The notes beneath the pieces are model-generated. The model saw only the letters and a list, made by a program, of their open reading frames with translations. It did not search any database and was not told where the DNA came from. The position numbers and the translations under genes are program-made. From Erysipelotrichaceae bacterium (GTDB lineage: Bacteria; Bacillota_I; Bacilli_A; ML615J-28; CAG-313), in the NCBI GenBank assembly GCA_015059015.1, contig SVBG01000003.1, positions 186,001 through 250,000 on the forward strand: 64,000 nucleotides of DNA, written 5' to 3'. Numbering within the stretch: the stretch's first letter is position 1; each line of letters starts with the position of its first letter. Below are positions 36,296 through 39,544 of the stretch, one piece after another.

Positions 36296-38041
36296 TTATT
36301 TATCTACTTTAATACCAAGTTCAGCAAGTTGTGCATCAGTAACTTCAGTTGGAGCTCCACTCATTGGGCATTTAGCTGAAGCTGCTTTAGGGAATGCAAT
36401 TACTTCACGTAAGTTATTATTCTTAGTAAGAAGCATTACAAGTCTATCAAAACCAAGAGCAAGTCCACCATGAGGAGGTGTACCATATTTAAGTGCATTT
36501 ACAAAGTAACCAAACTTAACGCTTGCATCTTCATCTGTTAAACCAATAGCTTTAAACATCTTACTTTGAATTTCTTGATTATGAATACGGATACTACCAC
36601 CACCAAGTTCATAACCATTTAAAACAACGTCATATGCTTTAGCATAACAATTAGCAGGATCTGTTAATAATTTATCTTCATCACCATCTTTAGGAGATGT
36701 AAATGGATGATGTGCTGCTTCATAGCGACCTTCTTCTTCATTATATTCAAATAATGGCCAATCAACAACCCATAAGAAATTAAACTTATCATTATCAATT
36801 AAATCAAGTTCTTTACCTAATTGTAAACGAAGAGCACCTAAAGATTGATTACAATTAGCAAGTTTATCAGCAACAATTAAAACTAAATCATTAGTATTTA
36901 AACTTAGTTTTTCAACTAAAGCATTCTTATTATCTTCAGATACAAATTTAGCAACACTACCATTTAAAACACCATTTTCATATTTTAACCAAGCAAGTCC
37001 ACCAGCATGATATTTTTTAGCAAGTAAAGTTAAACGATCAATTTCTTTTCTAGAATATTTATTTGCAGCATCTTTTGCAACGATACATTTAACATTTCCA
37101 CCATTTTCAATAGCTGATTTGAAGAAACCGCATTCAGTAGTTAATGCCCAATCAGAAATATCATTAAGTAGCATTTCAAATCTTGTATCAGGTTTATCAG
37201 AACCATAATTATTCATTGCATCAGTCCATTTCATATGCATAAATGGAGTAGCAATATCAATATTTAAACAATCCTTCCAAACCTTTTTTAGTAATCCTTC
37301 AACAAGTGCTTGAACATCTGGTTCATCAACAAAACTCATTTCAAGGTCAACTTGAGTAAATTCTAACTGTCTATCTGCTCTTAAATCTTCATCTCTAAAA
37401 CATTTAACAATTTGGAAATATCTTTCAAATCCCGCTACCATTAATAATTGTTTATAAAGTTGTGGACTTTGAGGAAGTGCATAAAATTCCCCTTTATGAA
37501 CACGTGAAGGAACTAAAAAGTCACGAGCACCTTCAGGTGTAGACTTACCAAATACAGGTGTTTCAACTTCAATAAAATCAAGTGCGTCAAAATAATTACG
37601 AATTGACATCGCAGCTTTATGACGAAGTTTCATATTATATTGCATTTGAGGTCTTCTTAAATCTAGGTAACGATATTTCATTCTTGTATCTTCAAGTGCA
37701 TCAGTGTTATCTGCAATAATCATAGGAGTAACTTCTGCAGAAGATAAAATTTCTAATTTTTCAACAATTACTTCTACTTCACCAGTAGGAATGTTTTTAT
37801 TTTTACTTTCACGTTCTACAACTTTACCAGTTGCTTTTAAAACATATTCATTTTTAACATCAACCGCAACATTATAGTATTCATTAGTTGGATTAACAAC
37901 AATTTGGGTAATACCCCATCTATCTCTTAAGTCAATGAAAACAAGCCCACCTAGGTCACGCTTTTTACTACACCAACCAACAAGTGTAACAACTTCACCA
38001 ACATTACTAATTCTTAATTCTCCATTATTTTTTGTACGCAT
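36296..38041 (-). CDS. aspS: Aspartyl-tRNA synthetase
   Basis: Class II enzyme charging tRNA-Asp. The 581 residues run in the bacterial order: OB-fold anticodon domain (about 1-105), class II core with [20 protein letters not shown] (motif 2, about 217-236), the bacterial GAD insertion (about 285-415), and motif 3 [11 protein letters not shown] near 527-537. The bacterial GAD insertion argues for the Asp-specific or dual enzyme; a gatCAB locus is not in the window. Overlaps the end of hisS by 17 bases, forming a hisS-aspS operon as in Bacillus. Confidence 0.96.
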
Positions 38042-39314
38042 ATTTTTCTCCTTCTATATTAAATATTTCATTTAACTCTTCAATCTTTTTGATTTCTTCT
38101 GTTTTTAGTATTGTATTTTTTAATTTAAATACACCATTTTCTACTTCTTCTGAACCAATTATAATAATGTATGGTGCATTCACTCTTTCAGATAATTTAA
38201 ATTGTGGTTTTAAATTACTACTTACATAATCAATTTCACATGATACATCATTACTTCTTAAGTGTGCAGCAAGACTTAAAGCTTCAAGTTTAGTTTCTTC
38301 ACCGATATTAATTACAACTACATCAACTAACTTTTCATCATCTTTAAATAAACCTAGTTCATCAAGCACTAACATTAATCTTTCAACACCAGTACCAAAT
38401 CCGATTGCATCTGTTTCAGGTCCATCAAACTGACGTGATAAGCCATTATAACGTCCTCCACCAAGTAAAGTTAATCCATCAATATTAGAATTCTTATCAT
38501 CATAAATAAATTCAAATACAGTGTGATTATAATAATCAAGACCACGAACTAATTTTTGTTCAATTACATATTCAACACCTAACTTATCTAAACACTTAAG
38601 TACTTTTTCAAAATACGCAATATCTTCTTCACTTAGGTAATCAATGATTTTAGGTGCATTTTTCATGATATCGCTTTTTGCATCAACCTTACAATCTAGA
38701 ATACGAAGTGGATTTTTCTCAAGTCTTGTTTTACAATCATTACACATTTTATCAATATGTGCACTAAAATATTCTTTTAATGCTTCTTCATATTTTGCAC
38801 GACCAGATTTACTACCAATTGTATTAATTGCAACTTTAACATTTTTAATACCAAGTTTTTGTAAGAATAAATAACCAAAATAAATCACATCAGCATCTAA
38901 ATATGCAGAACCAGGTCCTATTGCTTCAATACCAAATTGTGTAAATGCTCTATATCGTCCAGCTTGAGGACGTTCACATCTAAACATTTGACCAAAATAG
39001 AATAATTTTTTTAATCCTGGATCAACATACATTTTATTTTCAACATAAGCACGAGATACACCTGCAGTTCCTTCAGGACGTAGTGTAAGTGACTTTTCAC
39101 TTCTATCTAAGAAAGTATACATTTCTTTATTTACAATATCAGTACCTTCTCCAACACCACGTGCAAATACTTCTGTTGCTTCAAAGATAGGTGTTACAAT
39201 TTCAAGGTATCCAAATTGTTTAGAAATACTTCTCGCAACATTTTCAATATAGCGATATTTTTTAACATCTCTTCCAAAATAATCTAATGTACCTTTAATT
39301 TTACTTACTTTCAT
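38025..39314 (-). CDS. hisS: Histidyl-tRNA synthetase
   Basis: Class II enzyme charging tRNA-His. From the ATG at 39314 it has 429 residues (starts [16 protein letters not shown]). Motif 2 is [19 protein letters not shown], the HisA motif is [15 protein letters not shown], and motif 3 is [11 protein letters not shown]. The frame stays open 41 codons upstream, but that segment is the non-coding T-box-like leader; GGGAGG lies just before the ATG at 39314. Followed by aspS with overlap. Confidence 0.95.
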
Positions 39315-39331: not shown

Positions 39332-39410
39332 AAAAAAAGAGTGCATAAAACAACCTAAGGACGTAAATATTTATACGCGATACCACCTTAGTTTGGAATA
39401 ATCCACTCTC
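39332..39410 (-). promoter_or_regulatory. T-box-like leader element of hisS-aspS
   Basis: On the minus strand the T-box core TAAGGTGGTATCGCG lies at 39376-39390 and the matching 3' arm ACGTCCTTAGG at 39354-39364, so the antiterminator helix (TAAGG/CCTTA) can form. AGAGTG/CACTCT then TTTTTTT (39332-39338) makes a terminator-like outer stem. Only about 110 bases separate the promoter from the core, and no standard stem I motifs (AGAGA, GNUG-type) are seen. The discriminator-pairing base is T, whereas tRNA-His (C73) and tRNA-Asp (G73) would call for G or C. Confidence 0.65.
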
Positions 39411-39507
39411 ATTTAATTCACTTAACGCGCAAATCACTTCGTTTTTTCTCCAAATTTGTCAGATTCTTCACTGAAAAAAGTAATTATTAAATTTTTTTAT
39501 TAGTAAT

Positions 39508-39536
39508 ATTATACTTTATTTTAATTTTAAAATCAA
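39508..39536 (-). promoter_or_regulatory. hisS-aspS promoter
   Basis: TTGATT, exactly 17 bases, then TATAAT on the minus strand. It lies 194-222 bases upstream of the hisS ATG, with the T-box-like leader between. Confidence 0.85.
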
Positions 39537-39544
39537 GAACATTA

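Follow-up and report, generated by a model that had tools for sequence, protein, structure and literature searches.

A T-box leader with an ultrashort Stem I and an aspartate specifier in front of hisS-aspS in Bacilli

The leader lying on the minus strand between dinB (DNA polymerase IV) and hisS-aspS in the window (the whole 64,000-nt stretch of DNA analysed, in whose numbering the leader coordinates are given) is a T-box leader. It is probably a transcription-attenuating T-box with a short Stem I that reads uncharged tRNA-Asp, with its Stem III discriminator stabilised against the terminator. Comparison of sequences establishes the anatomy, conservation, covariation and match between specifier and gene, and tRNA binding and switching are put forward as a proposal. 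Judged by its bulge, antiterminator, discriminator motif and specifier (a UGGN bulge in A1/A2 with a G-U pair, an RRRxG-Stem III-AA string and a specifier matched to the gene were all found), its membership of the T-box family stands. The features are collected in Table 1.

Table 1. Features of the leader and the genes that follow it, in window numbering
Feature	Position	Strand	Basis
Sigma-70-like promoter TTGATT-17 nt-TATAAT	39536-39508	-	10/12 consensus positions; consensus only
Ultrashort Stem I: base helix U6C/GA6, K-turn-like AGUGA/GA, 4-bp apical stem GAAU/AUUU	39479-39442	-	Rfam alignment and covariation
7-nt apical loop CUGACAA	39462-39456	-	identical in 10/11 same-family leaders, CUGACAC in the 11th
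Specifier GAC (Asp)	39460-39458	-	pairs with GUC anticodon of tRNA-Asp; UAC at the equivalent place in tyrS leaders
Stem IIA/B-like element, AACG able to pair with CGUU	39444-39417	-	overlap between AACG and the Stem I end; pseudoknot arm assigned by eye
Hairpin UUUGC/GUGAA with F-box-like loop GCGUUAA, within the Stem IIA/B-like element	39444-39417	-	sequence; IIA helix covaries
Discriminator motif GAGAG (RRRxG)-Stem III UGGA/UUAU/UCCA-AA	39410-39392	-	sequence; motif definition from the accessible part of PMC7583486
Antiterminator: A1 UAAGG/CCUUA, bulge UGGUAUC, A2 GCGUA/UACGU with G-U closing pair	39390-39356	-	alignment and covariation
T-box core TAAGGTGGTATCGCGTA	39390-39374	-	sequence
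Partner of the core TACGTCCTTA	39365-39356	-	sequence
Terminator AGAGUG/CACUCU and seven U	39409-39332	-	encloses antiterminator; folding and arm pairing in leaders
hisS, ATG at 39314	38028..39314	-	TIGR00442, 465.8 bits, above cut-off
aspS	36296..38041	-	NF001750, 841.7 bits, above cut-off

An earlier note on this DNA had described a T-box core, its partner and a terminator stem with seven T before hisS; all are present on the minus strand and their coordinates were confirmed. The promoter that it called perfect is a good one only (Table 1), and promoter-like sites are no rarer in the real sequence than in shuffles. Stem I, which it reported as missing, is present in ultrashort form, although its distal part is indeed absent. 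A Stem II with an S-turn is likewise absent from the window leader, where only ~8 nt separate Stem I from the IIA helix. The arms of the terminator stem are AGAGTG (39409-39404) and CACTCT (39343-39338), with the seven T at 39338-39332 on the minus strand, and the terminator includes most of the RRRxG string and the 5' strand of Stem III. The antiterminator is nested inside this outer stem, as the note had correctly seen, and the same nesting was found in 29 short-Stem-I leaders. Downstream of aspS, a deaminase-like gene (36283-35813 in the window) follows, in an order retained in L039, L043 and L045; its NCBIfam matches all fell below the cut-offs.

A search with the Rfam model RF00230, proposed in the earlier note, gave a match at 39480-39354 with 42.3 bits (E 3.3e-8 in the local search and 4.0e-8 genome-wide). 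The alignment is end to end and contains a large deletion within Stem I, and the score lies below the gathering score of 93 bits, which is a curator threshold and not a structural feature; a match was thus obtained, but not a high-scoring full model. None of the 20 sources containing short-Stem-I leaders reached this threshold, so annotation based on it would miss such elements. The genome contains ten T-box matches at E 4e-8 or better, six of which exceed the gathering score, showing that ordinary T-boxes also exist in the organism. Folded alone, Stem I of the window leader is weak (-3.6 kcal/mol, with 157 of 200 shuffles equally good). The stability of the whole leader is not above that of shuffles (z -0.88), and its MFE structure, which shows a different helix, was therefore not taken as evidence. 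The structure of the leader rests on comparison among relatives.

For this comparison, 30 hisS leader loci were taken from a search of 60 relatives; below, f1 denotes the window's own family, f2 its sister family and f11 another Bacilli family. The boundaries of stems and loop are our own reading, with the base helix UUUUUUC/GAAAAAA, the apical stem GAAU/AUUU and the loop CUGACAA placed according to the Rfam alignment. The same short Stem I design was found in six of the eight f1 hisS loci; the other two are G009, where Stem I is long and contains GACAC, and G007, which is cut off by the contig end. Across the six loci the apical stem varies (GAAU/AUUU, AAAU/AUUU, GAAU/AUUC, GAAG/CUUC, UGAG/CUCA) and the loop is constant. 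A pattern combining loop, F-box and T-box yielded nine records in a species collection of about 85,000 genomes, from Acholeplasmataceae, Anaeroplasma bactoclasticum, Bacilli and Firmicutes MAGs and one Clostridiales MAG (L044). In L039, L043 and L045 hisS is gone and the element lies directly 5' of aspS; a family search confirmed AspRS for L079, the G005 locus, whose leader is identical to that of L045. L044 (uncultured Clostridiales RUG12722) is a hisS-like leader whose short Stem I carries CUGACAA; it also has a mini Stem II hairpin and UGGC, and its terminator, which the terminator script did not score, is classical by eye. It represents either an independent origin or a transfer.

Alignment of hisS leaders, as the earlier note had suggested, revealed covariation. 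In nine f1 leaders, 92.7% of the cells were paired and 13 of 26 pairs showed two-sided changes; the covariation was 0.408 compared with 0.160 in shuffles, none of 500 shuffles was as high, and sliding the partners by 1-3 columns reduced the value to 0.05-0.09. An 18-row alignment taking in eight f11 leaders, G007 and the Clostridia leader L044 gave 93.1% paired cells, two-sided changes in 15 of 22 pairs and a covariation of 0.550, compared with 0.183 in shuffles. The Stem I base pairs 6-36 and 7-35 each changed on both sides in nine of the 18 rows, and the innermost apical pair was unpaired in eight, mostly Tyr leaders. Both Stem I helices thus covary and the loop is retained in relatives, and the A2 G-U closing pair is kept in nine of nine same-family leaders. 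The clear Stem I with an Asp specifier that the earlier note had named as evidence against its reading is there in an unexpected form, a short one that standard models score poorly, and the core, far from lacking conservation in relatives, belongs to a conserved element.

Two covariance models extended the search. Model 1, built from the nine f1 leaders, gave 74.9 bits or more for 11 of 15 f1 genomes and 53 or less for the others, and on 395 genomes of the class it ranked a set of f11 genomes next after f1. With model 2, short-Stem-I leaders were found in 14 of 145 f11-family genomes (at a chosen cut of 84 bits) and in 22 of 193 genomes of the order of f11 (E 1e-14), and in a 392-genome sample of the phylum only f1 (four) and f11 (two) scored 88 bits or more; relatives found by such model matches share the very features being counted.

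The specifier follows the regulated gene. GAC stands ahead of hisS-aspS or aspS in all 10 same-family leaders, out of 11, that have a readable gene, and the f11 short-Stem-I leaders have the loop YU-UAC-RN with the specifier UAC and tyrS as the first or second gene in 18 of 18 cases. TyrRS was confirmed by family search for L106, and the other tyrS genes were recognised by their start sequences. Ten further leaders from the order-level search with model 2, absent from any model, were checked separately: eight match the loop expression, L181 has the loop UUUACGA and a stem followed by GAA rather than GAG, and parsing failed for L186. All nine parsed leaders have UAC in the loop and a Stem III terminator, and tyrS is in reach in eight. 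In six Tyr leaders (L110, L112, L150, L152, L113 and L115) another gene precedes tyrS, either a HAD-type hydrolase (by family search for L110) or a gene resembling, by eye, an M29 aminopeptidase or a dUTPase; the gene in L113, of the M29 aminopeptidase-like group, had no NCBIfam match. The base 5' of the specifier is U in 30 of 30 short-Stem-I leaders, a count that is not unbiased, as the expression requires YU-[GU]AC and the leaders were picked by covariance score or DNA pattern; in the long-Stem-I f2 hisS leaders it is U in only three of 13 readable cases (16 given).

The GAC loop kept before hisS-aspS and the UAC loop before tyrS lead us to read the tRNA sensed by the window leader as tRNA-Asp. 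The tRNA-Asp of the window genome has the anticodon GUC, the anticodon loop CUGUCAC and G73 (loop and discriminator by eye), whereas its tRNA-His has C73 and its tRNA-Tyr A73. As the earlier note had pointed out, a U occupies the place that should pair with the discriminator base, G73 in Asp and C73 in His; however, the U of the window UGGU can pair with G73 of tRNA-Asp, by wobble only. Three Asp leaders (L040, L086 and L044) have UGGC, the Watson-Crick partner for G73, and UGGU is found in 18 of 18 Tyr leaders. According to the accessible part of the TBDB description, the same U situation is an exception present in 46% of Trp T-boxes. His was rejected as the sensed amino acid: CAC is not in the loop, C73 cannot pair with U, and the element remains before aspS where hisS is gone. 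With an Asp specifier in the apical loop, the unrelated tRNA suggested in the earlier note need not be invoked. A Y and a U before the triplet and an R after it give the layout of an anticodon loop, a likeness resting on seven letters, which suggests a possible U-turn and loop-loop kiss.

To characterise the terminators, each leader was folded from Stem III to the U-run, using the longest T-run. Before counting, 3 of 27 long f1, 2 of 15 f2 and 2 of 24 long f11 rows were dropped, having an unreadable core or U-run or a short Stem I in the long-Stem-I list, and L160, a tyrS leader with a similar loop and other flanks, was left out. In 11 of 11 f1 and 18 of 18 f11 short-Stem-I leaders, the partner of the arm preceding the U-run is the Stem III region, and in all 29, from two Bacilli families, the terminator avoids the antiterminator 3' strand. 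Own arms paired better than arms swapped between species (-12.4 compared with -9.2 kcal/mol in f1, and -9.6 compared with -6.6 kcal/mol in f11; 0 of 10000 permutations as strong in each), indicating that the pairing is maintained despite differing sequences. A classical hairpin was found in 21 of 24 long-Stem-I f1, 11 of 13 f2 hisS and 14 of 18 mixed Bacilli leaders, and these three groups showed no excess for own arms. The mean energy of the classical hairpin was only -2.2 kcal/mol in one short-Stem-I group and -0.6 in the other, whereas the long-Stem-I leaders of the same family averaged -11.7.

A terminator of the Stem III type also occurs together with a long Stem I: 15 of 22 long-Stem-I f11 leaders have it, among them L117, L123-L126, L130, L155 and L157-L159; in L123 the next gene is metS-like by eye and a hand count gave about 15 terminator pairs. 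The long hisS leader of G009 (L015 / L098; GACAC) also has a Stem III-type terminator (-15.7). In the HisRS tree G009 comes off at the base of f1, in a fork that is not resolved, so a change of terminator may have preceded the shortening of Stem I, and the G009 leader is a possible intermediate between the classical and short forms.

According to the accessible part of PMC7583486, sensing cannot do without Stem III and its purine flanks, and in the classical OFF state the 3' strands of A1 and A2 enter the terminator. The window terminator takes RRRxG and Stem III instead, and we therefore propose that uncharged tRNA protects Stem III. The loop C-U-GAC-A-A, with the layout Y32, U33, triplet, R37 and A38, would kiss the GUC anticodon loop-to-loop. 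The NCCA end of the uncharged tRNA would then pair with UGGU in the bulge of the antiterminator, with the RRRxG-Stem III-AA purine string locking on. With Stem III fixed, as the conserved pairing suggests, the downstream arm would be blocked from RRRxG and Stem III, the terminator would not form, and transcription would read through into hisS-aspS. When the tRNA is charged or absent, the arm would seize the Stem III region, closing the terminator with the antiterminator hairpin still inside. For the window leader, the calculated energies were -10.8 kcal/mol for Stem III plus antiterminator, -13.9 for terminator plus nested antiterminator and -22.4 for the best fold. A translational switch was rejected, as U-tracts and terminator arms are present and the ribosome site in the window lies 3' of the U-run.

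It could be argued that the tRNA stabilises the antiterminator against a hairpin of its own 3' strand, the Stem III terminator being incidental. An intact antiterminator is present, and the mechanism published in the accessible text of PMC7583486 is antitermination by A1/A2. However, the window leader has no complementary AAGGAC copy 3' of CGTCC, and the weak mean energies of the classical hairpin in both short-Stem-I groups also make this very unlikely. Protection of Stem III is thus preferred. The earlier note had also considered a decayed or relic T-box, whose core persists by chance or as a plain attenuator after tRNA sensing has been lost, and the weak fold energies of Stem I and the whole leader, the score far under the gathering threshold and the occurrence of decayed-looking leaders in the sister family (L021, L026, L029, L027 and L036) point in that direction. 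We consider this most improbable, because both Stem I helices covary, the loop, T-box bulge, Stem III flanks and A2 G-U pair are kept, the element is conserved in two Bacilli families, and the specifier tracks the gene across them. The sister-family leaders, moreover, differ in having lost GGTGG and kept the classical terminator. Lying 5' of hisS, these five have a classical CGTCCTTA...AAGGA-type terminator, some with a GCGTTAAAG-like piece, have no GGTGG core or Stem I, and look truly decayed.

A further explanation is that the element is a published class III short-Stem-I T-box, as in actinobacterial ileS, simply located in Bacilli. The specifier in the apical loop, the absence of distal Stem I, the K-turn and Stem IIA/B all agree with it. 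Class III is defined, in the accessible text of PMC10482949, by a loop of 5-6 nt and by its need for Stem II, whereas the loop here has 7 nt and the leader leaves no space for Stem II; the window leader also has a U-tract terminator, and the long Stem I of G009 at the basal f1 fork fits a local shortening. These points make class III membership unlikely. Our results favour the option of a minimal T-box with different logic, also raised in the earlier note.

The element is thus neither a relic nor a new kind of element, and it lacks testable defining features of classes I, II and III. Of the class I/II features, the elbow-binding interdigitated T-loops are absent, Stem I spanning 38 nt without a distal part; of the class III features, a 5-6 nt apical loop and a Stem II with an S-turn are absent. 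As far as the text of PMC10482949 is available, there are at least four T-box classes, in which binding is strengthened by the distal Stem I motif, by the S-turn of Stem II or by the two together, and short-Stem-I (class III) T-boxes require Stem II and are mostly translational; section 16 of PMC7583486, also available in part, states that transcriptional T-boxes generally need the elbow-binding motif for fast tRNA capture. A natural transcriptional T-box that has neither anchor allows this published elbow/Stem II rule to be tested directly, and as a tRNA sensor it would be unusually small; the Stem III terminator would give this sensor another, distinct means of gene control. No report of a transcriptional short-Stem-I T-box was found in the accessible literature on short or truncated Stem I, apical loops, ileS/Actinobacteria, Mollicutes/Acholeplasma, Stem III terminators and antiterminator structure. 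According to its accessible main text, TBDB applied its class II model to class I matches whose Stem I is truncated, and it may therefore already contain such elements without comment. We incline slightly towards a fifth T-box architecture, transcriptional and without elbow-binding distal Stem I or S-turn Stem II, with an anticodon-loop mimic for the kiss and a terminator that rivals the Stem III discriminator rather than the antiterminator, which would have arisen at least twice (in the Asp and Tyr families) and perhaps again in a Clostridia genome.

With class I T-boxes such as Bacillus subtilis tyrS, the window element has in common the K-turn, IIA/B with CGUUA, RRRxG-Stem III-AA, the UGGN bulge, A1/A2 with the G-U pair and a transcription terminator. 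The long-Stem-I f2 hisS leaders are class I-like and also have the Asp specifier GAC. Unlike both, the window element has no distal Stem I or Stem II, carries its specifier in the apical loop and builds its terminator with the Stem III region. With class III (Nocardia / Mycobacterium ileS) it shares the short Stem I, apical-loop specifier, K-turn and IIA/B, but, against class III as described in the accessible literature, it has a 7-nt loop rather than 5-6 nt, no Stem II, Asp/Tyr rather than Ile specificity, and a terminator in place of translational control. Class II (glyQS) is likewise transcriptional and without Stem II; according to the accessible text of PMC10482949, however, it keeps a long Stem I with the elbow-binding motif, which the window element does not have.
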